Below, piece by piece: positions 44,457-59,732 of a DNA stretch of 64,000 bases. The notes beneath the pieces were generated by a model. It made no database searches. It was not told where the DNA came from and saw nothing but the letters and a program-made list of their open reading frames with translations. A program made the translations under genes and the position numbers. Numbering within the stretch: position 1 is the first letter of the stretch; each line of letters begins with the position of its first letter. The stretch is from Halobacterium litoreum (GTDB taxonomy: Archaea > Halobacteriota > Halobacteria > Halobacteriales > Halobacteriaceae): assembly GCF_021233415.1 (NCBI RefSeq), contig NZ_CP089466.1:248001-312000 (forward strand), written 5' to 3'.

Positions 44457-46211
44457 ATGACCGACTACTTCGAGGTCCACGAGCGCGACGCCGCGGCGCG
44501 CGTGGGCGAACTCCGCCTCGCGGAGTCCGTGACGACGCCGGCGCTCGCCGACGACGTCGTCGAGGACGCCGGGAGCCGGTGGGCGGAACCCCAATCACTC
44601 CCCGAGGGCGACGACTTCGTGCTGACCGTGCTTCCCCACCGCGCGTTCCCGTCGGGGACCGCCGACGAGGTGCAGGAGTCGTTCGCGCCGGACTACCCGG
44701 ACGTCGACTACCCGAGCGCCGCAGTCGTCTCTCCGGAGACGGCCGATGACTTCGGCGCCGACGCGTACGTGCTGTCGGGCGCGCCCGGGACCGTCGGCCA
44801 CGGGTCGGCGTTCCGCGACGCCGTCGTCGAGGTTCGAGAGGCCGTCCCGGACGACACTGCGCTCTACCTCCCGGGCGTCGCGACGCCCCAGAACGTCGCC
44901 GTGCTCGTGTACGCGGGCGTCGACCTCGTGGACGCCGACCGCGCCGTGATTCGCGGGACGCAGGGCACCTACCTCACGACCGACGGCGAGTACGACCTCG
45001 ACGAACTGGACGAACTGCCGTGTGCCTGTTCGGCGTGCCGCCAGCCAATCAGTGAATTCGACCGGGAGGACTGCGTCGACCACAACGTCGCCCTGCTGGA
45101 GGCCGAGTTGGCGCGCGTGCGTCGCCGCATCCGTGACGGTCGCCTCCGGGACTACGTCGAGGGGCAGGCGCGCCACGAGGCGTGGGTGACCGCGGCGTTC
45201 CGCGAGTTCGACCAGCAGTACGGCTACCTCGAGGAGCGCACGCCCGCGCTCCGCGACTCCCTGCTATTGGCGTCGACGGAGGACGCGCTCCGCCGCGTGG
45301 AGATTCAGCGCTTCGCCGACCGCGTCACCTCGCGGTACAAGAAACGACTGGACGGCCATCCCCTCCTCCTCGTGCCGTGTTCCGCGCGGAAGCCGTACAG
45401 CGACTCTCAGAGCCACCGGCAGTTCCAGGACGCCGCCGACTACCGCGCGCACATGGTCTCCATCACGTCGCCCATCGGGGTCGTGCCCCAGGAACTCGAA
45501 CTCACGTACCCCGCCCAGCACTACGACTCCGTGGTGACGGGGCGGTGGAGCGAGGAGGAGAAGGACTTCGTCGCGCGCGTCCTGAAGCGCTATCTCGAGC
45601 GCACCGACTACTCCCGAGTCATCGCGCACGTTCCGCCGGAGGGCTACCGCGACATCTGCGAGCGCGTCGCCGGCGAGGTCGACGTCCCCTTCGAGTTCAC
45701 CGTCGAGGAGCACCCGACGACGAGCGAGGCGCTCGGCGAACTGAACGCCGCGCTCGCGGGCGAGGACAAGATTTGGGTGCAGGAACGCGAGGAGGCCACG
45801 CTTCGCTCGGTGGCCGACTACTTCATCGGCGACGGCGCGGGCGACGACCTGTTCCCGGACCTCGAAGTGCAGGGCCGCTACCCGAAACTGCAGGCGCTCG
45901 ACGCGGACGGCGAGCAGTTGGCGGCGCTCGTCCCCGAGTACGGGTCGCTGTCGTTCACGCTCGCCGGCGCGCGCCGCTGGGTGGACAGCGACGCGCCCAC
46001 CAAGCGCGTGGAGATAGACGGCTTCGTCCCGCAGGGGAGCGTGCTCGCACCGGGTATCCTGGACGCGAGCGACGACATCCGGGTCGGCGACGAAGTGGTC
46101 GTCGAGGGGCCGAAGGCCTTCGCGGTCGGGCGCGCGCAGATGCCCGGCCCGGCGATGGCCGACGCCACTCGCGGCGTCGCGGTGCAGGTCCGCCACTGCG
46201 AGGAGAAGTGA
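44457..46211 (+). CDS. arcS: Archaeosine synthase ArcS (formerly TgtA2)
   Basis: 584 aa. The N-terminal half is a TGT-like domain without the catalytic DSGSFQ motif (YFEVHERDAAARVGELRLAE in parts) and has a cysteine cluster (CACSACRQP). The ArcS signature LLVPCSARKPYSDSQSHRQF (20 residues) follows, and a PUA domain ends the protein (EIDGFVPQGSVLAPGILDAS, DEVVVEGPKAFAVGRAQM). It adds the amide nitrogen to preQ0 in tRNA, giving archaeosine. ATG 44457 (MTDYFEVHERDA) is preferred over an in-frame start nine codons earlier. Confidence 0.95.
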   Translation: MTDYFEVHERDAAARVGELRLAESVTTPALADDVVEDAGSRWAEPQSLPEGDDFVLTVLPHRAFPSGTADEVQESFAPDYPDVDYPSAAVVSPETADDFGADAYVLSGAPGTVGHGSAFRDAVVEVREAVPDDTALYLPGVATPQNVAVLVYAGVDLVDADRAVIRGTQGTYLTTDGEYDLDELDELPCACSACRQPISEFDREDCVDHNVALLEAELARVRRRIRDGRLRDYVEGQARHEAWVTAAFREFDQQYGYLEERTPALRDSLLLASTEDALRRVEIQRFADRVTSRYKKRLDGHPLLLVPCSARKPYSDSQSHRQFQDAADYRAHMVSITSPIGVVPQELELTYPAQHYDSVVTGRWSEEEKDFVARVLKRYLERTDYSRVIAHVPPEGYRDICERVAGEVDVPFEFTVEEHPTTSEALGELNAALAGEDKIWVQEREEATLRSVADYFIGDGAGDDLFPDLEVQGRYPKLQALDADGEQLAALVPEYGSLSFTLAGARRWVDSDAPTKRVEIDGFVPQGSVLAPGILDASDDIRVGDEVVVEGPKAFAVGRAQMPGPAMADATRGVAVQVRHCEEK

Positions 46212-46360
46212 CAGGCGGGCGGTCGTCGTCGCTGACACGACCCCGCTTTACGTGGCCTCGTCGAACTCCTCGTCCGGTGTTATTATCGCCGTAACACCTC
46301 GGTGTCCCGCGAATCGAGGGTATATTTACGCCCCGCCTGAATTGTACTTAGCCGGTACAT

Positions 46361-46369
46361 TATTGTTTA
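46361..46369 (+). promoter_or_regulatory. TATA-like box before the 98-aa gene
   Basis: TATTGTTTA lies 28-36 nt upstream of ATG 46397. It supports that start over ATG 46418 and suggests a leaderless message. The region 46212-46360 is AT-richer than average (GGTATATTTACG) but has no gene. Confidence 0.4.
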
Positions 46370-46396
46370 GCGTTACTTTCAAGTGGCTTATCAACT

Positions 46397-46693
46397 ATGC
46401 CTACATGCGCTCCAATAATGGGGGACAGAAACACAGTTCAACAGTCGAGGGGGGTACTCGACGTGAACGGCCCGCAGTTCGAGAACCGACAGTGGATCGT
46501 CGCGAAGTCGCTGCTCGAAGTCAACGACGCGTGTACGCGCACACTCGAGGACCTGGTCTTCCACGCGACGCGACCGGACGCCGACGACCGGTCCGACCAA
46601 CTCAAACAACAAATAGACGACATGATTCGGCGACACGAGCGACTCGTCGCAGAACTCGAACTGGCCAGAGAAGCGATAGACGGTCCCGAATAA
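46397..46693 (+). CDS. Small helical cytoplasmic protein, unknown function
   Basis: 98 aa (91 aa if ATG 46418 is used). There is no signal peptide or membrane segment. Mostly helical: NRQWIVAKSLLEVNDACTRTLE and RSDQLKQQIDDMIRRHERLV (cut short) look like two long amphipathic helices that could form a coiled-coil. It stands directly in front of the winged-helix gene and the surface locus, with lower GC than the average. I do not recognise the family. Confidence 0.72.
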   Translation: MPTCAPIMGDRNTVQQSRGVLDVNGPQFENRQWIVAKSLLEVNDACTRTLEDLVFHATRPDADDRSDQLKQQIDDMIRRHERLVAELELAREAIDGPE

Positions 46694-46699
46694 CCCTTA

Positions 46700-46725
46700 A
46701 TACTGTTAGTACTCGCTAACAGTAT
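46700..46725. promoter_or_regulatory. Perfect 10-bp inverted repeat, operator or terminator
   Basis: ATACTGTTAG and CTAACAGTAT are exact complements separated by TACTCG. The repeat begins 7 nt behind the 98-aa gene's stop and ends 68 nt before the winged-helix gene, upstream of that gene's TATA box. No T-run follows. The AT-rich arms and the place favour a binding site for a dimeric regulator over a terminator. Confidence 0.55.
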
Positions 46726-46759
46726 CTACGAATAGTTCGAAACCGGATAGGAACCCCGG

Positions 46760-46767
46760 AATATATG
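46760..46767 (+). promoter_or_regulatory. TATA box of the winged-helix gene
   Basis: AATATATG lies 26-33 nt upstream of ATG 46793, so the message is probably leaderless. Confidence 0.55.
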
Positions 46768-46792
46768 TCCGCGAGGCGCGAGTCTTGGCACG

Positions 46793-47086
46793 ATGAAACT
46801 CGCCGTTCCGACGGACTTCGAGATATTAGACGCGCTTTCCGACGGCAAACGAAACAACGCCGTCAACATCTCTCACATCATCGATAAGAACCGCGCGTAC
46901 ATCAACACGCGCCTCCCCGTGCTCGCCGACTACTCGCTCGTCGAGCGCGTCGGCCCCGCGCCGAACAGCGGGCTCTACGCGATCACCGAGAAAGGACAGG
47001 TCGTCCTCGAACACCGCAGCGTCTACGAGGACGGCGACGTCGACGACTTCGACCAGTTCGTCGACGACGAACTGAACGGCGAGTAA
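46793..47086 (+). CDS. Winged-helix transcriptional regulator
   Basis: 97 aa. The whole protein is one winged-helix domain: DFEILDALSDGKRNNAVNIS (helices 1-2), DKNRAYINTRLPVLADYSLV (recognition helix) and ERVGPAPNSGLYAITEKGQ (wing), then an acidic tail. Small regulators of this kind are frequent in haloarchaea (PhiH1-repressor-like). Its promoter region carries the perfect inverted repeat, a natural autoregulatory site. It lies 200 nt in front of the giant surface gene and could control it. Confidence 0.82.
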   Translation: MKLAVPTDFEILDALSDGKRNNAVNISHIIDKNRAYINTRLPVLADYSLVERVGPAPNSGLYAITEKGQVVLEHRSVYEDGDVDDFDQFVDDELNGE

Positions 47087-47170
47087 CGCTTCTCATCTCG
47101 GGTCCGTCCGCCGCGGCTCGCTTCTCCCACCCGGTAGTTCCTGCTTAACGCCCAACCTATTCTCTCCGAA

Positions 47171-47205
47171 ACTATTTTAACCTCTTTTGCTATATACCGA
47201 CAGTA
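47171..47205 (+). promoter_or_regulatory. Promoter region of the giant surface-protein gene
   Basis: CTATTTTAACC (47172-47182) is the best TATA element and implies a leader of about 80 nt before ATG 47287, longer than usual here. TATACCGACAGTA (47193-47205) just behind it recurs with one change in front of the subtilase gene (55339). Long leaders are known for haloarchaeal S-layer messages. Confidence 0.5.
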
Positions 47206-47286
47206 CATGCGAATGGTGGGTAGCGATGACACGTCGGGGGACTGGCGGGGATTGCTGTCCGGCATTCGCTGTGACTCAACCACAAC

Positions 47287-50200
47287 ATGACACGGACTTC
47301 GAAGACTGAACAGGCGCGCGCGGTACTACTCGCGGCGCTGATGGTGCTCTCCGTCATGGTGGGCTCCATCGCGTTCGCCGGGAGTGCTGCAGCCGCCTCA
47401 AACGCCGGACCCGAGGAGTTCTCCGATCTGGGGACAGATGCGGGGACGCTCGCGGCCGGTGAGACGGCAGTCGTACAGACAATAGAAGTGAACGACACCG
47501 ACGCGGACGACGGAACCGGTGACACGAACCCGGTCAACGTGACCAAGGTCAACGTGTCCAATGCAGGTGGCACCACCGTCTCCGCGTCGAACGTCTCCGA
47601 GGTGCGGATTCTCGACGCGAGCGGCAACGAGCTCGCGTCGGCCGCCCCGTCCGGAGCGCTGAGTACCGGACAGACTTTCGACATCACGAACGTCACTATC
47701 CCGGACAACGGGAGTACGACGCTCCAAGTCGAAGTGACGATTGCCCCGGACGCCACGGAAGACGGCAACACGCTGGAACTGGCCACGAAGGCGAACTGGA
47801 CGGAGGGACCGAACTCCGGCCAGACCGCCTACGTGACTGACGGTGTCGCCGAGACGCTCGACACCGTCGAGCCGGGTCTCAGCAGCGCGTCGACGGCTGA
47901 CAACGACAACGACGGCTCCGTCGACACGATTACCGTCATGTTCAGCGAGGACGTACAGGACTCGTCCGTCGAGGCTTCGGACTTCTCGCTGAGTGACGGT
48001 AGCGTCGACAGCGTCGACACGAGCCCGTCCGACAACAGCACAGTCCACCTGACGGTGAGCGATGTCGGCGACACGGCGGCGACGCCGAACGTCAACCTCT
48101 CCGCAGGTAGCGTCACCGACGTCGCCGGCAACGCTGGCCCGGCGGCTGAGGAGCAGGTCACTGCGACTGACAACGCGAACCCTGCCGTGACGGACAAGAA
48201 CCTGAACAAGACGCTCGTCAACGACGCGGACGCACCCGCCACGGTCGAGGTCAACGTCACGTTCAGCGAGAACGTCACCGCTGGTACCGTCCAGATTGTC
48301 GACAGCGGTCTGGCCACCAGTCCGCTCGACGTGACTGGCTCCGTCGACAACGACACGTTCAGCGGAACGGTCACGATCAACGACAACAACGACGACGTCG
48401 AAGCGAACCTGAGCGTCACTGGATTCAGCGGCGAGAACGGCAACACTCAGGAAGCGTACAGCCAGCAGGCGCTGACCATCGACACGCAAGAGGACATCAG
48501 CATCAATTCCGCTGAGACGGCCGACCTGAACGACGACGGAACCGTCGAGACGATCAACGTCACGTTCAGTGACGCTGTCGACGACAGCACCGTTCTCACC
48601 GCAATCGAGAACGACGACTTCAACCTCAAGTCCGCTACCGTCGAAGACCTCAACGGTGGCGAAGCGAACGACGCGACGGTCTCGCTCGAAGTCTCCGGAC
48701 TCGGGAACACGGCGGCGACGGACGAACTCTCGCTGTTCTCGAACTCCATTGAGGACACCGCGGGTAACCCCGGTCCGACGACTGGTACGTTCAAGCCGGT
48801 CAGTGACGGCGCGAAGCCCGTCGTCACCGACGTGACGCTGAACGTCACTGAACTGAACGAGTCCGACGTGCCTGCCGACGTCGAAGTCAACGTCTCGTTC
48901 AGCGAGAAGATGGGCACTGACCCGTCGGTCACGCTCGTCGGTCTCAGTCAAGGCGACATCACGGCGTCGCCCGCGAGCGCTGACGACGGCGACGCGAACC
49001 TGTCCGCGACGACTGTCAGTCAGATTGCAGATAACGACGAGGACGTCTCGGTCTACGTCAACGTCTCCGATGGCGACGACAGCAGCGGGAACGCTGTCGA
49101 GACGTGGAACCAGAGCGACCTCACCGTCGACACGCTCGCCCCGAGTGTCACCGTGAACAACTCGGAAGCGCCCGAGGGCGAAATCGTCAGCGGTGAACTC
49201 GACCTCTCGACGTTCTTCGACATCTCGGAGGACGACGGGGGCGAGACGACGTACCTGATCAACACGACCGCCGGCGGCTCGAACTACTCCGAGGTCAACG
49301 AGCAGTTCGACACGAACTCCATCGACGACACCGCGCACCTGACCGTGCGCGCCGTCGACACGGACAACGTCGGCAACAGCGACAACGCGACGACGGCCGA
49401 CATCAACGTCGACAACACGGCACCGCAGGTCACCATTCAGAGCCCGTCCGAGACGACGGCTCGCCAGAGCGGTGGCGTACTCGACGTGACCGTCGACGTC
49501 ACCGAGCAGAACCTCGCAGCCGACAACGCGACGCTCGTGCTTTCGGATGGCAACAAGACCATCCAGTACAACGCGTCGCTGAGCGACGGTTCGAACGAGG
49601 TCGACCTCCTGCTGAACACGTCCGAGAACGCCTCGGATGCGTCGGCCATCGAGCCGAACCTGTCCGCGACGAACACCACGTTCGACACGCAGACGGTCTA
49701 CGACCTGTCCGTGACGGTCGACGACTCCACGGGCAAGTCCACGACCGCGACGCAGACGGACGCGCTGTTCCTCGACGACACGGCGCCGGCGAACTTCAGC
49801 CTCGTCGCGCCGAGCGAGGCGACCGAGTACGACCCGACGGTCGAGGGTGAAGACGAACTCGTCGTTTCCTACGGCTACACCGAGGACAACGTCGACACCG
49901 TGACCGTGTCGCTCACGAACGAGAGCGGCGCAGTCGCGAACGTCACAGTCGACGAGTCCCAGTACACGGACGACGGCGTCATCAAGAGCTTCGAGCTCGA
50001 CCTCGTCGACTCCTTCGACACCGGTTCGCTGGCCGACGGTCGGTACAACGTCTCCGTGACGGTGACCGACCTCGCCGGCAACAAGCTCGTCGACAACACG
50101 ACGAACGCGCCGGTCGCGATCAACGCCGAGTCGCCGTCGGACGGCACGCCGTCCTTCCAGGGCACCACGCCGACCGCGACGGCGTCCATCGGCGAGGACC

Positions 50201-53200
50201 CGGAGAACGTGACGGTCGAAGCGACCTACAACGTCTCCGTGCCCGAGGTCACTGACGCGGGCGCCATCGAGGACCCGCAGAACTCCCTCGAGAACGTCGA
50301 CGTCACCGCACCCAACGCGACCGTCGTCGTGGACTACTACGACGCGAGTGAGGGCAAGTACCTCACGTACACCGAGGAAGTCGCTGTCGACTTCTCCGGT
50401 GAGAACGCGACCGCGAACGCGACCATCACCGAGAGCGTGACGGTCGACATCAGTGACGTCGGCCCGTCGCTCGACGACGGTGACCGCGTGCTCAAGCGGA
50501 CGGCGTCGCTCTCCGGCAACGTCGGCGTCGACGTCGAGGCGTCCTACGGGACCGCCTCGAACACCGACGCTGTCGACACGGGGACGACGACCTTCGTCGA
50601 CAACGAGACGGTCGCGCCGACCCTCGACAGCATCGAAGTCGACGGTGACGTGAGCGCGACGAGCGACGAACTCGTGCTCACGTTCGACCGTCCGGTGCAG
50701 GCGACGGCCGCCGGCATCACTGCCGACGACTTCGCCTACATCAACGAGAACGGCAACGTCGACAACTACGTGACCGCAGTCAGTGGCGTCGGTGACGGCG
50801 ACACCCAAGTCACGGTCACGCTGAACGGTGCTGTCGAAGCCGGCGACGTCGGCTCCGACATCGTCAGCATCCAGCCCGACGTGCTGGAGAACACCGAATC
50901 GCCGAACAAGAACGTGTCCGCGACGAGCGACACGTTCGCGGAGACCACCGCGCCCGTGCTGACGGACGCGACGGTCGGCGACGACGCGTCGACGGTCACC
51001 GTGACCTTCGACGAGCAGGTGCAGGCCGCGAACGGTAGCGACCTCACCGCCGCGAACTTCAGTTACTCCGGTAGCGCGAACGTGACGAGTGTGAGCCAGA
51101 CGGCCGACGACACGGTCGTCGTCACCCTCGACGCGTCCGTCACCTCCGGAGAAATCGGCAGCGCCGAAATCGCGGTCAGCGACGTGTACGACCGCTTCGG
51201 CAACTCCCTCACGGACAGCACGGCGGTCACCGACGGCACGAAGCCGTCCGACCTCCAGATTGTCCAGCCGACCCAGCAGACCACCGTGAAGTCCGACGAC
51301 CTCCTCGACGTGACGTACGGCTACGTCGAGAACGTCCCGGACAACGCGGAGACGACCGAAATCACGCTCACCGACAACGACGGCACGTCGTACACCTTCA
51401 CGGTTGACGACACGCAGTACGTCGCGGGCGTGAACAAGACCGTCACGCTCGACTTGGGTAACAAGGGCACCCTCGAAGACGGTGCTTACCACGTCGAGAT
51501 TACGGTCACCGACGCAGACAGTAACGAGGACACCGTCCAGACCGAGGACGCCGTCGTCGTGGTGAACGACGAGGCGCCGACGGTCAGTGACGTGTCCATC
51601 GCGAGCGACACGTCGGACATCGCGTCCGACTCGACGCTGAACGTCACGTACGACTACGACCCGGCACCGAACGCGACGAGCGTCACGGTGTGGGTTGTCG
51701 ACAGCGAGGACGCCGGGAACTTCACGTCCGGTGACCTCGCGAACGCGTCGTACACGACCTACGAGAAGTCCGTCGACCACGGCGTCGTCGACGACCGCAA
51801 ACTCTCCGTCGACCTCGGCGGCGAGATTGCGGACAACGACGACTACACGGTCTTCGTGACCGCGACGGACGCCGACGAGATGCAGAGCGACGCGGCGCAG
51901 GCGTCGAGCACGCTCGACGTGAACGCCGAGAAGCCGAGCATCGAATCCGTCGAAGCGAACGCCGGCAGCGACACGGTCACGGTGCAGTTCACCGAGGCCG
52001 TCGTCCCCGGCGACGATGACGCGAACATCACGCGCGCCGACTTCGCGTACCAGAACGTGAACGGCGCGGGAGCGAGCGCCATTGAGTCCGTCGCCGTCCA
52101 CGACGGCGACACGGTGACGCTCGAGCTCGACGCCGAGGTCACGAGCGGTGACCTCGGCAGCGACCACGTGAACGCCCGCGGTGGGCAGATCGTGGACACC
52201 GACGGCGACAACGCGCGCGTCGTCGGCACCGACGCGGTCGCGCTGTCCGACTCGACCCAGCCGACGGTCGGCTCGGTCGACGCGGGCGCAATCAACGCGA
52301 ACAACGCCGACAGCTACGACGTGACCGTCGACACGGGGTCGGAAGTGACCGACGTCTCGGTGACCGTCACCGGGTCGAACGGCACGTCCGTCTCCGACAG
52401 CGCGACGGCAGTCACGGGCGAGGCGACCCTCACCGTCAACGCTAGCGCGCTCGAAGACGGTAGCGTCACTGTCGACGTGACGGTGACCGACGCGGCCGGT
52501 AACGAGGCCTCGGCCTCGCGCACGGTCACGAAGGACACCGACGCGCCGACCATCGAATCCGCGACGACGAACGCGGGGACGAACACGGTTACGGTGACGT
52601 TCTCCGAGGACGTCACTGGCGTCTCCGCGTCCGCGCTCGGCATCACGAGTTCGAGCCACGAAGTCATCGACGTCGTGGACGACGGCTCGTCCGACGCCAC
52701 CGTGCTGGTGGTGCTGAACGAGTCGGTGCCCGCGGCCGCAATCAACGACAGCAGTGTCGCCCAGATTACGGCCGCCGGCGTCACTGACGTGGCCGGCAAC
52801 CCGGTCGCGTCCCAGCAGAAGCTGACTGACGTGGACGCGCCGAGCGTCATGAGCGTCACCGCGGACCGCGGCGACGAGAACGTGACCATCACGTTCTCCG
52901 AGAACGTGGACGCGGGCGAAGAGGGGGCGCTGAACGCCTCTGACTTCGCGTACACCGACGCGAACGATGCCGGCGCGTCCGGCATCGAGTCGGTGACCCA
53001 GACCGGCCCGCAGACGGTCGTCCTCACGCTGAACGGGTCGCTCACGCCGAGCGACATGGCCGAGGACACCGTCGGCATCGAGGCGGACAGCGTGTTCGAC
53101 TCGGTCGGTCACCCGGTCGCTGCACACAGCAGCAGTATCGGTATCACTTCGGACGTCAGCGTGTCGACGACCGAGGACTCGGTCACGGTGACTGTGGTGT

Positions 53201-54312
53201 CGCCGAACAACGTGTCCACGGCCATCGACTCGCCGATTACGGTCGAGAAGAAGTACCGCGAGCTCGGTTCGCTCGAAGGCTTCGAGCTGAACGAGCGGTA
53301 CACGAAGACGCTGAAGGCGTCCGACTTCGAGAAGGTCGAGGCCGGCGTCTACGAGGCGACGGTCTCGGTCGACGAGGACGGCGTCTACGTGGCGTCCGGT
53401 ACGGTCGACTCGATGATGATGTCCGCCGAGGGTATGGTCGACGCGGAAGCGCCGCACCCGACCGACGCGGTCATCACGGACGTCACCAGCGAAGCGCAAC
53501 TTGACGACACGCGGGACACCACGCGCGTTCGCGTGCTGTTCAACGAACCGATCGACGCGAGCGAAATCCTGCCGAGCGACGTCTCCATCGAAGGGTTCGA
53601 CGGAGAGGTCGTGGCAGTCCAGCCGGCCGGTCCGCTCGGCTCGGTGACGGTCGTCGTCGAGGGCAAGGTCCAGACGGGTGCGTACCCCGACGTGACCATC
53701 GACGGTGACAGTTACACGGACCTCGCCGGGACGGCCGGCGAGGAGGGCGGCGACACGGTGGTCCACACCGACACGCTCGACCTCTCGAAGGGCCAGAACT
53801 TCGTGTCCGTGCCCGCAGCGAGCGGCGAACTCGACCTCGACGAACTCGACACGTCCGAGGTCGACGCCATCTACGCGTACGACGCAGCGTCGAACGAGTG
53901 GGAGGCGTACGACCCCGACGCGAAGGAGAACGACTTCTCCGCGCTCGAGGGCGGTGAAGGGTACGTCTTCGTGATGGACGAAGCCGCAACCCTCGAAGTG
54001 AACGTGTACAACGTCGCTGGCGCCGAGGCCGGTGCCGCGGCGCCCGCACCGAACCAGCAGGAACTGACCGAAGGGTGGAACCTCGTCGGTCAGTTCCAGG
54101 AGTACGACCAGTCGGTGACGACGGCGCTGTCGTCGCTGGGCAACGACTCCGTCTACAGCGTGCTCTCGCAGGACGAGTCCGCAGACGGCATCGCGTACGA
54201 GTCCTACGGCGCGGGAGACTTCGAGACGATGGAGCGCGGCGAGGCCTACTGGCTGTTCGTGCAGGACGACGAGGTGTACACCGAGTCGTCTGGCCACACG
54301 GTCGCGGTCTAA
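47287..54312 (+). CDS. Giant secreted Ig-like repeat protein, S-layer/adhesin type
   Basis: 2341 aa. The signal peptide is the haloarchaeal surface-glycoprotein type (LLAALMVLSVMVGSIAFAG, cut near AAAASNAG). The mature protein is a chain of Ig-like domains, at least nine recognised by VTVTFSEDV-type strands and ends like VTDVAGN (e.g. TVTVTFDEQVQAANGSDLTA). Two longer domains of another type start near FSLVAPSEATEYDP and LQIVQPTQQTTVKS. It contains many N-x-S/T sequons and no cysteine that I noticed. The C-terminus has two GWNLVG-like modules (KGQNFVSVPA; TEGWNLVGQF) and ends SSGHTVAV, with no membrane helix or PGF-CTERM. The anchored protein 40 nt downstream may hold it at the cell. Confidence 0.85.
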   Translation: MTRTSKTEQARAVLLAALMVLSVMVGSIAFAGSAAAASNAGPEEFSDLGTDAGTLAAGETAVVQTIEVNDTDADDGTGDTNPVNVTKVNVSNAGGTTVSASNVSEVRILDASGNELASAAPSGALSTGQTFDITNVTIPDNGSTTLQVEVTIAPDATEDGNTLELATKANWTEGPNSGQTAYVTDGVAETLDTVEPGLSSASTADNDNDGSVDTITVMFSEDVQDSSVEASDFSLSDGSVDSVDTSPSDNSTVHLTVSDVGDTAATPNVNLSAGSVTDVAGNAGPAAEEQVTATDNANPAVTDKNLNKTLVNDADAPATVEVNVTFSENVTAGTVQIVDSGLATSPLDVTGSVDNDTFSGTVTINDNNDDVEANLSVTGFSGENGNTQEAYSQQALTIDTQEDISINSAETADLNDDGTVETINVTFSDAVDDSTVLTAIENDDFNLKSATVEDLNGGEANDATVSLEVSGLGNTAATDELSLFSNSIEDTAGNPGPTTGTFKPVSDGAKPVVTDVTLNVTELNESDVPADVEVNVSFSEKMGTDPSVTLVGLSQGDITASPASADDGDANLSATTVSQIADNDEDVSVYVNVSDGDDSSGNAVETWNQSDLTVDTLAPSVTVNNSEAPEGEIVSGELDLSTFFDISEDDGGETTYLINTTAGGSNYSEVNEQFDTNSIDDTAHLTVRAVDTDNVGNSDNATTADINVDNTAPQVTIQSPSETTARQSGGVLDVTVDVTEQNLAADNATLVLSDGNKTIQYNASLSDGSNEVDLLLNTSENASDASAIEPNLSATNTTFDTQTVYDLSVTVDDSTGKSTTATQTDALFLDDTAPANFSLVAPSEATEYDPTVEGEDELVVSYGYTEDNVDTVTVSLTNESGAVANVTVDESQYTDDGVIKSFELDLVDSFDTGSLADGRYNVSVTVTDLAGNKLVDNTTNAPVAINAESPSDGTPSFQGTTPTATASIGEDPENVTVEATYNVSVPEVTDAGAIEDPQNSLENVDVTAPNATVVVDYYDASEGKYLTYTEEVAVDFSGENATANATITESVTVDISDVGPSLDDGDRVLKRTASLSGNVGVDVEASYGTASNTDAVDTGTTTFVDNETVAPTLDSIEVDGDVSATSDELVLTFDRPVQATAAGITADDFAYINENGNVDNYVTAVSGVGDGDTQVTVTLNGAVEAGDVGSDIVSIQPDVLENTESPNKNVSATSDTFAETTAPVLTDATVGDDASTVTVTFDEQVQAANGSDLTAANFSYSGSANVTSVSQTADDTVVVTLDASVTSGEIGSAEIAVSDVYDRFGNSLTDSTAVTDGTKPSDLQIVQPTQQTTVKSDDLLDVTYGYVENVPDNAETTEITLTDNDGTSYTFTVDDTQYVAGVNKTVTLDLGNKGTLEDGAYHVEITVTDADSNEDTVQTEDAVVVVNDEAPTVSDVSIASDTSDIASDSTLNVTYDYDPAPNATSVTVWVVDSEDAGNFTSGDLANASYTTYEKSVDHGVVDDRKLSVDLGGEIADNDDYTVFVTATDADEMQSDAAQASSTLDVNAEKPSIESVEANAGSDTVTVQFTEAVVPGDDDANITRADFAYQNVNGAGASAIESVAVHDGDTVTLELDAEVTSGDLGSDHVNARGGQIVDTDGDNARVVGTDAVALSDSTQPTVGSVDAGAINANNADSYDVTVDTGSEVTDVSVTVTGSNGTSVSDSATAVTGEATLTVNASALEDGSVTVDVTVTDAAGNEASASRTVTKDTDAPTIESATTNAGTNTVTVTFSEDVTGVSASALGITSSSHEVIDVVDDGSSDATVLVVLNESVPAAAINDSSVAQITAAGVTDVAGNPVASQQKLTDVDAPSVMSVTADRGDENVTITFSENVDAGEEGALNASDFAYTDANDAGASGIESVTQTGPQTVVLTLNGSLTPSDMAEDTVGIEADSVFDSVGHPVAAHSSSIGITSDVSVSTTEDSVTVTVVSPNNVSTAIDSPITVEKKYRELGSLEGFELNERYTKTLKASDFEKVEAGVYEATVSVDEDGVYVASGTVDSMMMSAEGMVDAEAPHPTDAVITDVTSEAQLDDTRDTTRVRVLFNEPIDASEILPSDVSIEGFDGEVVAVQPAGPLGSVTVVVEGKVQTGAYPDVTIDGDSYTDLAGTAGEEGGDTVVHTDTLDLSKGQNFVSVPAASGELDLDELDTSEVDAIYAYDAASNEWEAYDPDAKENDFSALEGGEGYVFVMDEAATLEVNVYNVAGAEAGAAAPAPNQQELTEGWNLVGQFQEYDQSVTTALSSLGNDSVYSVLSQDESADGIAYESYGAGDFETMERGEAYWLFVQDDEVYTESSGHTVAV

Positions 54313-54352
54313 CCACACCAACTCTCGCCATCTTTGGGGGTAATTCAACAAC

Positions 54353-55219
54353 ATGACACGAACTACGAACTGGCGGAAGTTGGTCGTCGTCGCGGTAGTC
54401 GCGACGCTGTTCGTCGCCGGCCCCGCGGCCGCGGCGGCTGCGTCGTCGACGCCGCCCTCGCCACCGCACCGATTCTTCGGGACGGTCGAGGACGCGAACG
54501 GCGACGCTGTCGACGGGGCGGTCGTCGAGGTCGTCTACGACGGCGACGTCGTCGCTACCGACACGACCGACTCGGACGGGTACTACGACGTGCGCGTCTC
54601 CGAGGAGGACGTCGATCAGACCGAGGAGCGAACCGTGACTGTCACCGTGGGTGACCGCTCGACGACGTTCGAGTGGGAGTCCGCCGGGTCGACCGAGGCG
54701 AACTTCAGTCTCGGCTCGGCTGGCGGTGGCGGCGACACCGGCGGTGACGACGGCGACTCCGGAAGCGGTGGTGACGGCGACACCGGCGGCAGTGACGGTA
54801 ACACTGGCGGCGGTGGTGACGGTGACACCGGTGGGTCTGGTAGTGACGACGGTTCCGACGACGGTCAGAACAACGCCGGCGGCGGCGGTGGCGCTGGTGG
54901 CGGTGGCGGCGGTGGCGGTGCTGGTGGTCAGGAAGACACGACCACGCAGACGCCGACCACGACCGCTCAGCCGACCACCCAGTCCACCGAGCAGACGACG
55001 GACGCGCCCACCACGTCGGACGACACGACGACGACGGACGGCACGCAGTCGACGGTCGACGACACGACCGACGACGCGACCACGTCCGAGGACGGCGACG
55101 AGAACCCGTCCGGTGACAGCGCCGACGACGGTTCGGGCGGCGGCGTGCCCGGCTTCGGCGTCGGTGTCGCACTCGTCGCGCTGCTGGCTGCCGCACTGTT
55201 GGCACTCCGCACCGAATAG
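54353..55219 (+). CDS. Secreted PGF-CTERM protein with carboxypeptidase-regulatory-like domain
   Basis: 288 aa. Signal peptide (LVVVAVVATLFVAGPAAAA), one Ig-like/carboxypeptidase-regulatory-like domain at about 42-120 (FGTVEDANGDAVDGAVVEVV, DSDGYYDVRV), a Gly/Ser/Asp-rich and then Thr-rich stalk, and the end GGGVPGFGVGVALVALLAAA plus a short basic tail. This is the PGF-CTERM signal processed by archaeosortase A to a lipid-anchored protein. It follows the giant gene after 40 nt with GGGGG 12 nt before the ATG; both genes share the bases ACAACATGACACG around their starts. Confidence 0.87.
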   Translation: MTRTTNWRKLVVVAVVATLFVAGPAAAAAASSTPPSPPHRFFGTVEDANGDAVDGAVVEVVYDGDVVATDTTDSDGYYDVRVSEEDVDQTEERTVTVTVGDRSTTFEWESAGSTEANFSLGSAGGGGDTGGDDGDSGSGGDGDTGGSDGNTGGGGDGDTGGSGSDDGSDDGQNNAGGGGGAGGGGGGGGAGGQEDTTTQTPTTTAQPTTQSTEQTTDAPTTSDDTTTTDGTQSTVDDTTDDATTSEDGDENPSGDSADDGSGGGVPGFGVGVALVALLAAALLALRTE

Positions 55220-55327
55220 CACGCGAACCACTCCGACGAATTCTCCTTCTTTTATCGCGCGAGTAGCCGCGGCGACGCGCAGGTCGTACCGCGGACAATC
55301 GACGGTGCTGGAGTGGTTAGGACAGGA

Positions 55328-55358
55328 TTAATTATTTGTATACCGACGGTATATACCG
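55328..55358 (+). promoter_or_regulatory. Subtilase promoter with two overlapping palindromes
   Basis: TTAATTATTT (55328-55337) is a TATA box 28-37 nt from ATG 55365. Behind it, TATACCG-A-CGGTATA (55339-55353) and CGGTATATACCG (55347-55358) are perfect palindromes that overlap by seven bases. Their place between TATA box and start is that of a repressor operator. The region 55220-55327 holds a T-rich CTTCTTTTATC stretch that may end the preceding message. Confidence 0.6.
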
Positions 55359-55364
55359 TATCGC

Positions 55365-57083
55365 ATGGAGCAGACTCGTCGAAACTTCATCAAGACGGCG
55401 GCGGCTGCCGCGGGGGGACTCGCAGTCGGCACGCACTCTGTCGTCGCGAACGGTACAGTCGAAGACCAGTATCTGGTAGACACGCGCTCGGCGAACTCGG
55501 ACGCGTGGCGTGAGGACGTCGAAATCGTGGAGGAAGCGCCCGAACTCGGATTCGCGTCCGTACGAGGGAGCGAGAGCGCGCTCGCTGGCCTCGACTACGC
55601 CGCGGAAATCGAGTACGAGGTCGCGCCGCCGGGCCGCCCGGAAGAGGCGCCCGCGACCGAGAACGGGGACGCCACCGACCTCGCCGCACAGGACGTAGAC
55701 GCGGGCGACGCCGATATCCCCGGGCCACATCCGCTTCAGTGGGACAAGAAGGCACAGGGCGTCGCGGAACTCCACGAGCAGGGCATCACCGGAGAGGGCG
55801 CCCGCATCGGCATCGTGGACGGCGGCATCGACCCCGACCACCCTGACCTCTCGGGGAACCTCCGGGAGGACCTCTCCGAGAACTACTCGGCGGCGCCCTC
55901 GACGGGCGTGCCGGAGGGAGGCTACCACGGGACGCACGTCGCCGGCATCGCGGCGGCGACGGGGGACAGCGCGGCAGACGGCGGCCCGTACGTCGTCGGG
56001 ATGGCGCCCGAGGCGGAACTCGTCGACAAGAAGGTGTTCCCGTTCAAATCCAGTTCGTCGTTCCTGAACGCGATCCGGTCCGCCGTCGACGACGGCTGTG
56101 ACGTGGTGAACATGAGCTTCGGTCCGGGGTCGCCGTACGGTCCGAGCGTCGAGTCCCACCTGAACGCCGAGGCGTACACGCGCGTCGGGAAGTACGCCCG
56201 CGACAACGGCACGCTCCTCGTGGAGTCCGCGGGGAACGCCGACGTGAACATCGACGCCACACCGGAACTCTCCACGAACACCGGAAAGGGGAGCCAGCCC
56301 GGCTACCTCTCGATTAGCGCGACCGGCCCGGCGACGGTGCCGAGTACGATTCCGGACTTCGGGAGCGTAGCGCCGACCACGGCGCCAGCGTACTACACGA
56401 GCTACGGCCCGGAGAGCGTCGACCTGAGTTCGCCCGGCGGGAACGTCCTGTTCACCGACTTCGACGGCGTCCTCAGCACGATGCCGCCCGAGAACCCCGG
56501 CGGCTTCGCCCGCATCGGCGACGGCGAGTACGGCGCCTACGGCACGCTCCACGGCACGAGCATGGCCGCGCCGAACGTCACCGGCGTCGCCGCGCTCCTC
56601 GCGGCGGAGAACCCCGACGCGACGCCCACGCAACTCAAGCAGACGCTCGAATCGACGGCACGAACAATCGATGAGGCGCCACCGGACATCTTCGAGGCGG
56701 CTGGCATCCCCGGCATCGGCTACTTCGAGTCGACGAACGACACGCTGTTCGGCGACTTCGAACTCGAAGACCCCTACTCGTCGAAGACCTACCGCGGTTC
56801 CGGCCACCTCGACACGGTCGCCGCCGTCTCGACGGGCATCCCCGACGCCATCGAGGGCGGCGTCGACGTGATGGGGGAGACGTACTATCCGGCTGACCCG
56901 GACGGAGACGGCAAGTACGAGGACGTGAACGGCGACGGCGTCGTCGACATGGACGACGTGGAACTCCTCTACCAGATGGCACTCCGGAACGTCGTGCCCG
57001 CCGACACGGCCGCGTTCGACTTCAACGGCGACGGTACGTTCGACATGTACGACGTGCAGGCGCTCGTCCGGCAGGTCGAGTGA
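55365..57083 (+). CDS. Tat-exported subtilisin-like protease with C-terminal dockerin-like module
   Basis: 572 aa. The twin-arginine signal is RRNFIKTAAAAAGGLAVG. After a propeptide-like stretch, the S8 catalytic triad is Asp152 (GIVDGGIDPDHPDL), His191 (GTHVAGIAAATGD) and Ser399 (HGTSMAAPNVTG). The last ~65 residues hold two calcium loops of the dockerin I kind, DVNGDGVVDMDDVELLYQM and DFNGDGTFDMYDVQALVRQ. Such halolysin-type proteases fold before export and act outside. The dockerin-like end suggests docking on a partner; no cohesin was recognised nearby. Its promoter shares a motif with the giant surface gene. Confidence 0.92.
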   Translation: MEQTRRNFIKTAAAAAGGLAVGTHSVVANGTVEDQYLVDTRSANSDAWREDVEIVEEAPELGFASVRGSESALAGLDYAAEIEYEVAPPGRPEEAPATENGDATDLAAQDVDAGDADIPGPHPLQWDKKAQGVAELHEQGITGEGARIGIVDGGIDPDHPDLSGNLREDLSENYSAAPSTGVPEGGYHGTHVAGIAAATGDSAADGGPYVVGMAPEAELVDKKVFPFKSSSSFLNAIRSAVDDGCDVVNMSFGPGSPYGPSVESHLNAEAYTRVGKYARDNGTLLVESAGNADVNIDATPELSTNTGKGSQPGYLSISATGPATVPSTIPDFGSVAPTTAPAYYTSYGPESVDLSSPGGNVLFTDFDGVLSTMPPENPGGFARIGDGEYGAYGTLHGTSMAAPNVTGVAALLAAENPDATPTQLKQTLESTARTIDEAPPDIFEAAGIPGIGYFESTNDTLFGDFELEDPYSSKTYRGSGHLDTVAAVSTGIPDAIEGGVDVMGETYYPADPDGDGKYEDVNGDGVVDMDDVELLYQMALRNVVPADTAAFDFNGDGTFDMYDVQALVRQVE

Positions 57084-57163
57084 CGTAACGCGACGCCGTC
57101 GTTCTACTTCTTTCTCTCTGCTCTTGGAGAACGCACAAGTCACGGGGCTCCCTACGACGTCGC

Positions 57164-57586
57164 ATGCGAGTTGCGGACGCGATGACGTCGCCGGTGGTGA
57201 CGGTGCCGGCGGACGCGTCGCTGCGGAAGGCGGCGGACCGAATCTGCGAGGAGGATATCGGGAGCGTCGTCGTGACGCGTGACGGGAATCCGGCGGGCAT
57301 CCTCACGGAGCGGGATTTCGTGGCGGCGGGCAGGGAGTACGACCGGGCGTTCGGCGAGATTCCGGTGTACGCGGCGGCGTCAGGGCCGCTGGTGACGGTG
57401 CGGCCGGACGCGTCGCTGCGGAAGGCGGCCCGCGAGATGAGCGAGGCGGGCGTGAAGCGCCTGCCGGTGGCCGACGGCATCGACCTCGTGGGAATCTTGA
57501 CGGCGTCGGACCTGGTGGGGGTGGGGGAGTCACTGGATTCGGCGGCCAAGCGGTACGTGCAGGAGCGGGAGGACTGGCTGTCCTAG
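57164..57586 (+). CDS. CBS-domain pair protein
   Basis: 140 aa, two CBS domains: MRVADAMTSPVVTVPADASL with DIGSVVVTRDGNPAGILTE, and GPLVTVRPDASLRKAAREM with VKRLPVADGIDLVGILTA. Such stand-alone pairs bind adenine nucleotides as energy sensors. The partner is not evident. It overlaps the converging sulfatase gene by 4 nt. Confidence 0.92.
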   Translation: MRVADAMTSPVVTVPADASLRKAADRICEEDIGSVVVTRDGNPAGILTERDFVAAGREYDRAFGEIPVYAAASGPLVTVRPDASLRKAAREMSEAGVKRLPVADGIDLVGILTASDLVGVGESLDSAAKRYVQEREDWLS

Positions 57587-58827
57587 AGGTAGCCGAGGTC
57601 TTCGAGGTGGTCGTCGATGTCGAGCTGTTCGACTTCGTCGAGGGGGCGGCCGCGTTCGGGCATGAGCCGCTGGAGTTTCGCTTCGAGCGCGCTGTCCTCG
57701 ATGCGCTGGAGTTCGCGGGGGTCGGCTTCGAGGTCGTAGAGTTCGGAATCCCAGTCGCGGTCGGGGTATTCGACGTACTTCGCGCCGTCGTATCGGATGG
57801 CGCGCGCCCAGTTCTTGTCGCCGTGGAGGGAGGCGCCGCAGGCGCGCATGTAGGCGGGGCGGTCGGCGACGCCGGGACGAATCGGGTCGCCGTCCACGTC
57901 GTTCTCGGGGCGGGCGTCGACGCCGAGCGCGTCTAAGAGGGTGGGGAACACGTCGACCTGTCGGAGTTGGGCGTCGACGCGCGCGGATTCGATGCCGGGG
58001 CCGGCGAGGACGAACGGGACGTTCGTGGTGAAGTCGTAGACGTTCTCGCCGTGGCCGTTCTCGAGGTAGTGGTCGGCGATGTCGGGGCCGCGGTCGGCCC
58101 ACCGGCGGTTGAGTTTGCCGGCCCAGTTGCGGGTGTCGACGCCGCCGTAGTACCGGAGGGCGTCGCGGGCGGACTTCAGGAGGAGGCGGACGGGGCTGTT
58201 CCGGAAGGTGACGCTCTCGCCGTGGTCGCCGAGGAACGCGACGACGGTGTCGTCGGGCGCGGCGTCGACGAGCGCCTCGATTTCGCGGTCGAGCGCGGAG
58301 AGCGCGCGGCCGTACGGGGTCTCGCCGTACTCAGGGCTGTCGAACTCGCTGGGGACGCGGACGTCCTCGTGAATCTCCCAGAGGTGGACGAACGCGGCGA
58401 ACGGTTCGGGCAGACTCTCGACCCTGCTGAGCCCTTCGGAGCGCCAGTCGCCGAACATATCGGCGTTCTCGGCCCGGTGGTCGTACTCGTCGAAGCCGCG
58501 GTCGAGACCCGTTTCCGGGAGGAGCGGCCCCGTCACCATCGCTTCGGTGTGGTAGCCCGCGTCGCCGAGCACTTCGGCGAGTGGGTCGACGTCCGGCGAG
58601 AGCGTGCCGTGGCGCAGGGACTGCACGCCGTTGCGCTCGTTGTAGGTGCCCGTGAGCAGGCTCGCCATCGCGGGCGTGGTGGTGGTCGTCGTCGAGTAGA
58701 GGTTCGAGCAGTCCATGCCGCGCTCCCGGAGGCCGTCGAGGAACGGGGTGTCGGTGCGGTCGCTTCGCACGAAGTCGTCGCGCAGGCAGTCCACGCAGAC
58801 GACGAGTAGATTCGGCGTGTCGGTCAT
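57583..58827 (-). CDS. Sulfatase-family protein (alkaline-phosphatase superfamily)
   Basis: 414 aa, no signal peptide. Metal-site motifs: LLVVCVDCLRDDFV at the N-terminus, TTTTTTPAMASLLTGTYN where the nucleophile (here Thr) lies, FLGDHGESVTF, and the ending LYDLEADPREL. The sulfatase C/S-x-P-x-R motif reads T-T-P-A-M-A, so formylglycine-type sulfatase chemistry is unlikely; phosphodiester or phosphoglycan chemistry is possible. Its ATG overlaps the previous gene's stop (ATGA), so both related proteins are made together. Confidence 0.85.
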   Translation of the reverse strand: MTDTPNLLVVCVDCLRDDFVRSDRTDTPFLDGLRERGMDCSNLYSTTTTTTPAMASLLTGTYNERNGVQSLRHGTLSPDVDPLAEVLGDAGYHTEAMVTGPLLPETGLDRGFDEYDHRAENADMFGDWRSEGLSRVESLPEPFAAFVHLWEIHEDVRVPSEFDSPEYGETPYGRALSALDREIEALVDAAPDDTVVAFLGDHGESVTFRNSPVRLLLKSARDALRYYGGVDTRNWAGKLNRRWADRGPDIADHYLENGHGENVYDFTTNVPFVLAGPGIESARVDAQLRQVDVFPTLLDALGVDARPENDVDGDPIRPGVADRPAYMRACGASLHGDKNWARAIRYDGAKYVEYPDRDWDSELYDLEADPRELQRIEDSALEAKLQRLMPERGRPLDEVEQLDIDDHLEDLGYL

Positions 58828-59732
58828 GTCTTGTAGCCGAGACTCTCCAGTCGCTCGTCCACGACGTCCGCGTCGGTCTCGTCGGTCGCGGGCGCCGCGC
58901 CGTCGCCGGGGTCGCGGGTCTGTTCGTCGGTCGCCGAGGTCACGCACCACGGCACCTCGCGGAGCGCGGGGATGTCGACGCCGCCGGGGTGGCCGTAGAT
59001 GTGGTGCTCGCCGAACGCGTTGCCGTGGTCGGCCGTGAGCACGGCGGTGTCGGCGTCGACGTTCGAGAGGAGTAGTTCCACGTCTTCGAGGACGGCTTCG
59101 AGGTTGCGCTCGTAGTCCGCCCACACGTCGGCCTCACTGCGCTTGCCGAACCGGAGTTCCTCCCAGACGGACATCGGCTGGTCGCCCCAGTCGTCGAGCG
59201 CGATGCCGTCGTCGTCCCCGAACACGGTCGGGAAGTGCGGCTGCATGTAGTGGACGACGAGGCGCTCGGTGTCGGCCTCGCGGCCCGCGCGAATCGCGGC
59301 GTCGGTCAGCGGACGGGGCGGAATCGTGCCGGTGTCGTCGTCCCACGCGTGCTTCCAGACCTCGTCTACGTACCCGAACCGGTCGGTGTCGATGGTCCGA
59401 GTGGTGTAGGGGTTCCCGGTGACGTACGCGACGTCCGCGAGTTCGTCGTCGGTCGCCGCCCCGAAGACGGATTCGAGCCACTCCGTGGACGTGCTCGCGG
59501 GCGACGTGGCGGTGTCGCCGACGTCGAAGGAGTAGTCGCCGTCGCCGACGACGTCCGCGAACACGTCGGCGCGACACGCGTCGAGCACGACGAGGAGGTC
59601 CCAGTCGGCGTCCAGCACCGGGTCAGGGTCCGTCCGCGAACCCACCGCGTAGTAGGTGCGGGAGACGAACTCGCGGACCGCGTCCAATCCGGCGTACCGG
59701 AGACTGCGGACGGCCGCCGCGAGGTCGGACAT
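58824..59732 (-). CDS. Second, shorter sulfatase-superfamily protein
   Basis: 302 aa. WDLLVVLDACRADVFADVVG at the N-terminal metal site, TSPASTSTEWLESVF at the nucleophile region and AVLTADHGNAFGEHHIYGHP at the second metal site place it in the alkaline-phosphatase superfamily. The C-terminal VDERLESLGYK resembles the end of its neighbour (DDHLEDLGYL). The protein lacks the central insertion of the 414-aa relative. ATG 59732 is preferred to the GTG one codon before. Haloarchaeal homologues often lie near glycan genes, which fits the surface locus next door. Confidence 0.8.
   Translation of the reverse strand: MSDLAAAVRSLRYAGLDAVREFVSRTYYAVGSRTDPDPVLDADWDLLVVLDACRADVFADVVGDGDYSFDVGDTATSPASTSTEWLESVFGAATDDELADVAYVTGNPYTTRTIDTDRFGYVDEVWKHAWDDDTGTIPPRPLTDAAIRAGREADTERLVVHYMQPHFPTVFGDDDGIALDDWGDQPMSVWEELRFGKRSEADVWADYERNLEAVLEDVELLLSNVDADTAVLTADHGNAFGEHHIYGHPGGVDIPALREVPWCVTSATDEQTRDPGDGAAPATDETDADVVDERLESLGYKT

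Follow-up and report, generated by a model that had tools for sequence, protein, structure and literature searches.

This report concerns a surface-protein locus of Halobacterium litoreum within a 64-kb stretch of contig NZ_CP089466.1 (positions 248,001 to 312,000; hereafter the window, whose own numbering is used for coordinates), in which the gene for a giant secreted protein is directly followed by that for a small PGF-CTERM protein, here called the anchor partner. An earlier note on this DNA had listed eight genes in 46397-59732, all of which are present at the places and with the properties it described, and had read these 13 kb as one coherent surface system. We find that a smaller set holds together, consisting of the giant, its anchor partner, a protease and a winged-helix regulator (the cassette), and that a CBS protein gene and two sulfatase-superfamily genes do not belong to it.

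The giant and its anchor partner

The giant surface protein (47287..54312, + strand) has 2341 amino acids (aa) and starts with a haloarchaeal surface signal peptide (TIGR04207, above cut-off). Its immunoglobulin (Ig)-like repeats, recognised as Big_5 above cut-off, number about 19 over residues 196-2157 in an iterative profile search. The protein contains no cysteine, 18% aspartate plus glutamate and 2.3% lysine plus arginine, and carries 62 N-glycosylation sequons compared with 33 in shuffled sequences (shuffle maximum 49), with a single sequon in the final 341 residues. The chain ends in a double GWN domain (53764..54309, + strand), nearly free of sequons, which we propose as a docking end. 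No Pfam or NCBIfam family matched this module in 18 members; its model is all-beta with moderate confidence (predicted local distance difference test, pLDDT, 75; predicted template modelling score, pTM, 0.74), and the best hit of a PDB search with the model, at a Z score of 5.9, is not a convincing match and speaks neither for nor against novelty. The last Ig-like domain resembles the surface layer (S-layer) proteins SbsB/SbsC in a structure search (Z 11-12). The giant has no PGF-CTERM and no other C-terminal anchor of its own.

Near its N-terminus the giant matches the S-layer glycoprotein profile (E value 1.9e-8; 9e-17 for the giant of genome G003). An 883-aa S-layer glycoprotein homologue, which also matches the C-terminal part of that profile, is encoded elsewhere in the genome (G000:C1:2277761). 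On this ground we rejected the giant as the sole S-layer protein; the structure to which it belongs would more likely be a further coat of the surface, or an adhesive fibre, made under certain conditions.

The anchor partner (54353..55219, + strand, 288 aa) consists of a signal peptide, a mature N-terminus with the segment PPSPPHRFFG, a transthyretin-like/CarboxypepD_reg domain (54437-54712), a stalk rich in glycine and threonine, and a PGF-CTERM (55133-55210). The latter scores above the cut-offs of both TIGR04126 (33.2 bits, cut-off 24.5) and PF18204 (22.7, cut-off 18.8), by which the partner qualifies as a predicted substrate of archaeosortase A. The low-complexity Gly/Thr-rich stalk recurs in the eight relatives inspected, and the end of the protein differs by species, being either a PGF-CTERM or a plain transmembrane helix. 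Nearly all partners have PPxPP or PPPxPA right after the signal peptide, a start that is absent from the orphan partner of genome G258. The N-terminal domain is modelled as transthyretin-like with a pLDDT of about 95.

Profiles of the giant's C-terminus (A1) and of the partner's N-terminus (A2) were run on 391 haloarchaeal genomes, the counts from which are samples of species and not independent events. A1 gave 29 full-length matches in 26 genomes, 13 genera and 5 families, its weak matches being mostly Ig repeats. The partner lies 3' on the same strand in 27 of these 29 giants and the remaining two end at contig edges; at every locus not cut by a contig end the partner is directly behind the giant (27/27 testable). 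Seen from the other side, 26 of the 27 partner matches at E<1e-20 are behind a giant, the exception being the orphan in G258. The open reading frames of the full-length relatives range from 1280 to 2753 aa with a highly variable number of repeats, except for one of 318 aa in G389. Loci were found in Halobacterium salinarum, H. bonnevillei, Haloferax larsenii, Hfx. mucosum and Hfx. elongans, and in the further genera Natrinema, Haloarcula, Halorussus, Halorubrum, Halobellus, Halolamina and Halospeciosus. One genome carries tandem giants, each with a partner, that of the upstream giant being short (148 aa; G020:C1:1686000-1722000, loci L028 and L029) but included in the count of 27.

The same order extends to more distant proteins. 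Of 13 weaker matches that touch the GWN part, in other large proteins, 12 are followed by a partner-type gene no more than about 1 kb away. Of 37 weaker partner loci (L112-L147, L151), most, not all, have directly upstream the gene of a large secreted protein (745-1932 aa) whose end region bears a GWN[FL]-type motif. In a second branch of this two-gene rule, the large secreted proteins end in GWNFVGA...GYWV and the partner-type anchors behind them start with PPPTPAAYYG-like sequences (L114, L118, L120, L125, L130, L133, L136 and others). In the RefSeq annotation of plasmids of Halobellus ramosii and of the methanogen Methanohalobium evestigatum, a 'surface glycoprotein' or 'Ig-like' gene is followed by a 'PGF-pre-PGF' gene, and the methanogen pair has GWNLLG and PPHMVYG features as in haloarchaea. 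A Thermoplasmata contig (L051) holds a weak instance of the pair. The only open reading frame matching both profiles (L094), a candidate for a natural fusion of GWN and anchor, led to a Halorubrum aidingense giant with an extra generic CarboxypepD_reg-like domain after the GWN module and with a separate partner still present, and it was therefore rejected as a clean fusion. We found no description of the giant and anchor pair in the open-access literature searched.

Protease, regulator and operator

The third gene of the cassette encodes a subtilase of 572 aa (55365..57083, + strand) with a twin-arginine translocation (Tat) signal (TIGR01409, 23.5 bits, cut-off 16.7), a Peptidase_S8 domain (PF00082, above cut-off, E 3.7e-44) and a C-terminal type I dockerin (56916-57077; PF00404, 42.4 bits, cut-off 22.9). 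The regions of the D-H-S motif are kept in all six aligned orthologues. Seven orthologues occur in the 391 genomes, scoring 804-1167 bits with the next best protein at 254, and every one of them is directly behind a giant and anchor pair, in three Halobacterium, three Haloferax and a genome of a third family (G251). The earlier note had named scattered, independent occurrence of the core genes in related genomes as what would refute its reading; the giant and PGF genes are adjacent at all 27 testable loci and the protease follows them at these seven, so this check did not refute it. In the seven protease-bearing genomes no cohesin (PF00963) scored above cut-off as a partner for the protease dockerin. 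In two Haloferax species the three genes are followed by an ABC transporter-like set of an ATP-binding protein and two membrane proteins (L036:13849-17067, L038:13831-17049), and in Natrinema a similar membrane protein is encoded close to the pair (L040:12933-14006). The three Haloferax are mentioned in a Science paper on tissue-forming haloarchaea, in its reference list only.

Upstream of the giant lies a gene for a winged-helix protein of 97 aa (46793..47086, + strand), the putative repressor of the set, preceded by its companion, a small acidic protein without a Pfam family (46397..46693, + strand; about 76-98 aa, start uncertain). Homologues of the latter are found 5' of a winged-helix gene or of a giant at L034, L035, L039/L012, L027, L049, L150, L148 and L047. 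Helix-turn-helix Pfam families match 9 of 10 relatives of the winged-helix protein; on the question of a PhiH1-type repressor, its best phage matches have 37-41% identity over 67-73% of the query. Its subfamily (A3) has 16 strong copies in nine genomes, 14 of which are within 8.1 kb of a GWN/anchor pair.

An imperfect palindrome, TAC-N5-GTA, is common to the regions before giants and winged-helix genes across genera. We defined the form TACYGNYRGTA post hoc on the promoters of the regulator and the giant, which leaves the protease site as the single independent check. In the window this motif occurs only at 46701, 47195 and 55341 (five strand-matches, against 0.04 expected and a maximum of 2 in shuffles), that is, before the winged-helix gene, the giant and the protease, which bears out the shared promoter motif by which the earlier note had linked the parts; it is absent upstream of the CBS and sulfatase genes. 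The first site, TACTGTTAGTA (46701..46711), is part of a larger inverted repeat, ACTGTTAG-tactCG-CTAACAGT; the second, TACCGACAGTA (47195..47205), follows a TATA-like TATTTTAA by about 20 bases; and the third, TACCGACGGTA (55341..55351), is 14 bases before the protease start. Sites equivalent to that before the giant exist at L012, L027, L030, L032, L041 and L048, and the protease-promoter site is also present in H. bonnevillei (L035) and H. salinarum (L039), with a similar one in Hfx. mucosum (L037). With TATA-like sequences about 20 bases upstream, the sites cover the expected transcription start, a position that suggests repression.

Across the whole genome, the 14-base form of the operator has exact matches at the giant, at the protease and at one other place. 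An exact operator-like site between an amidohydrolase gene and hisG (G000:C1:2463073) and the operator-like sites at C1:1960047 and C1:1569169 adjoin genes without a surface connection, and we took them as chance or unrelated occurrences. In nine other loci (L034:6798-6965, L035:3694-3861, L045, L047, L049, L050 and L148-L150) the position immediately before the giant, occupied by an operator in the window, holds a gene for a ribbon-helix-helix-like protein of 53-56 aa (PF01402, E 0.0099, below cut-off); control thus differs between loci, whereas the pair is constant.

Borders and mobility of the cassette

Behind the protease lie the gene of a CBS protein (57164-57586) and, on the - strand, two genes of the alkaline phosphatase superfamily that overlap by four bases, sulfatase 1 (57583-58827) and sulfatase 2 (58824-59732; only a weak match, Metalloenzyme E 0.067). 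In three congeners that lack the cassette (L158-L160), arcS, the CBS gene, sulfatase 1, sulfatase 2 and purN follow one another in that order and so present an empty site, and sulfatase 2 was found in all ten congeners searched. Cassettes are also inserted elsewhere: that of G003 lies beyond the CBS-sulfatase block, that of H. bonnevillei comes after the CBS gene, and those of Haloferax have none of these genes nearby. Because of these empty sites and other locations, the CBS and sulfatase genes are excluded as members of the cassette and are its neighbours, and the polymer-modification limb of the system envisaged in the earlier note is not supported.

The C-terminal region of the Haloferax giants is 63-68% identical to that of the window and groups with the three Halobacterium sequences in a single clade with full support, within which the branching order is not resolved. 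Together with the differing chromosomal surroundings, this fits transfer between families. Plasmid-borne copies of the pair exist, and most congeners lack the giant. In several genera of two families the cassette is found close behind arcS, the gene of archaeosine synthase (L031, L033/L046, L034, L039, L049 and the window, 44457-47287), which suggests that this is a preferred or ancestral site.

Proposed structure and alternatives

The most fitting precedent is the two-component S-layer of the Sulfolobales, SlaA/SlaB. The genes slaA and slaB are neighbours, as are those of the giant and the anchor at all testable loci. In both systems a large, beta-rich outer protein that is, or here would be, glycosylated and has no anchor is combined with a smaller membrane-anchored protein. 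The N-terminal part of SlaB consists of beta-sandwich domains, to which the domain predicted for the partner may correspond; SlaB has three beta domains and, ahead of its transmembrane segment, a long coiled coil at the C-terminal side (PMC10903991). The partner described here differs from SlaB in having one transthyretin-like domain, a Gly/Thr-rich stalk and a PGF-CTERM or single transmembrane end, and no coiled coil; the giant differs in its roughly 19 Ig repeats and variable length, and the system as a whole in the coexistence of a separate S-layer glycoprotein homologue, in its accessory protease and in a regulator linked to it by the operator. A relationship to SlaA/SlaB at the sequence level was not demonstrated, and we do not class the cassette as a member of that system, since the coiled coil is absent and a two-dimensional lattice like that of SlaA/SlaB is here at most a possibility.

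With a probability of roughly two in three, we consider the locus to be a transferable, repressor-controlled cassette for a two-component surface structure that works like SlaA/SlaB. The giant would be exported by the general secretory (Sec) pathway, heavily N-glycosylated and extended as a long rod of Ig domains with an S-layer-like N-terminus. As an extracellular giant without an anchor is always followed by a membrane-anchored stalk protein, the simplest explanation is that the second holds the first, and the roles of scaffold and anchor given in the earlier note fit these two proteins. The exposed N-terminus of the partner, with its polyproline segment and transthyretin-like domain, would bind the C-terminal GWN module of the giant, the stalk would bridge the space below the S-layer, and the PGF-CTERM, or elsewhere the plain transmembrane helix, would fix the partner in the membrane. 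The winged-helix protein would bind TACYGNYRGTA at its own promoter and those of the giant and the protease, repressing all three. In the subset of genomes that have it, the Tat-exported subtilase would act on or with the assembled structure; given that it takes another export route and shares the operator, it most likely trims or releases it. Such a structure might serve adhesion, aggregation or shielding.

We also put forward, tentatively and at slightly less than an even chance, that the GWN module and the polyproline/transthyretin-like domain form a dedicated docking pair by which many different, unrelated giants are held on a separate membrane anchor, the GWN module being unnamed in the protein-family libraries searched. 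Such surface display would be common to haloarchaea and at least one methanogen, and probably also to an archaeon of the Thermoplasmata.

Several observations weigh against a repressor-controlled, SlaA/SlaB-like structure. Adjacency is a sign of co-inheritance, not of binding. The partner starts 957-2856 bases past the GWN module in eight loci, mostly owing to extra giant domains after it, and GWN therefore need not be the docking end everywhere. Some of the weaker partner-type genes are solitary, including one Halorubrum subfamily (L117, L123, L124, L127, L146) of about 490-515 aa with no GWN gene upstream; these may use a giant encoded elsewhere. The Haloferax cassettes have no winged-helix gene nearby and their motifs are weaker. 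The modelled N-domain of the partner has SlaB among its best structural matches (8qox_B; Z 10.3, 83 residues, 2.3 Å), which speaks for the comparison, but in a tie with unrelated transthyretin-like domains of carboxypeptidase D, and the likeness by itself is not discriminating because transthyretin-like and Ig-like folds are common. Lastly, in some species the giant and anchor genes are in one reading frame, and AlphaFold on the read-through chain gave confident separate domains and no usable interface, a single-chain prediction without inter-domain error that probes the separate folds only.

The best-surviving alternative, which we nevertheless regard as unlikely, is a mobile surface-variation island, in which the giant, the PGF protein and the protease are co-selected in a serotype-like exchange, with giant and PGF protein acting independently on the surface and never touching. 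The patchy distribution among congeners with its empty site, the grouping of Haloferax copies with those of Halobacterium, the plasmid copies and the wide-ranging repeat number of the giant would all be expected of such an island. However, giant and partner are never apart and never change order in 27 loci of 13 genera and 5 families, whereas the presence of the protease and of small regulators varies; the giant itself carries no anchor, and this gene order is seen again in a methanogen and with large proteins of other kinds. It is more improbable still that the partner serves in the export or maturation of the giant, for instance as a chaperone tethered to the membrane, or tethers the protease, and is not a permanent anchor. 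A small membrane-tethered protein with a transthyretin-like domain, co-transcribed with the giant judging by position, would suit the former role, and the protease dockerin suggests a docking partner somewhere on the surface; yet most genomes have the pair without the protease, the combination of long stalk and PGF-CTERM is characteristic of proteins displayed at the surface, and the seven protease-bearing genomes gave no cohesin. Least probable by far, and already largely refuted, is that the giant serves as the S-layer glycoprotein of this organism, or as a secreted sheath of the halomucin type, among ordinary neighbours, for although it has a haloarchaeal surface-glycoprotein signal peptide and the near-N-terminal profile match, a separate S-layer homologue exists, the giant lacks a PGF-CTERM and is missing from most congeners, and its neighbours are conserved.

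The proposed holding pair of giant and anchor also stands apart from the other known systems to which its parts are related. The giant shares with the ArtA-dependent S-layer glycoproteins of haloarchaea (NF041335 / TIGR04216) the TIGR04207 signal, a similar N-terminal stretch, acidic content and sequons; unlike them, it has no PGF-CTERM on its own chain, its putative anchor being supplied in trans by a neighbouring gene, and scores far below their cut-offs. Only residues near its N-terminus match NF041335, the whole-protein cut-off of which the giant does not reach, nor does any other match genome-wide, so the cut-off itself is strict. The partner in the window is a PGF-CTERM protein (TIGR04126), and those of several genomes carry PGF-pre-PGF (TIGR04213), but these models cover the sorting end or a middle domain, and obligate pairing with a large GWN protein was not found in the literature searched. 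With cohesin-dockerin systems of the cellulosome type the cassette has in common the type I dockerin of the protease, above the Pfam cut-off, but not the cohesin, as described above.

Large haloarchaeal surface proteins are usually annotated singly, as 'surface glycoprotein' or 'hypothetical', and for those without a PGF-CTERM the means of attachment is not obvious. If the pairing reported here reflects docking, it would provide a general rule for how such giants are held and a testable binding pair, within a regulated, horizontally moving surface cassette that is present in the genetic model species Halobacterium salinarum. The recurrence of giant plus anchor in haloarchaea and a methanogen suggests that archaea have a two-part mode of surface construction that is as yet undescribed.

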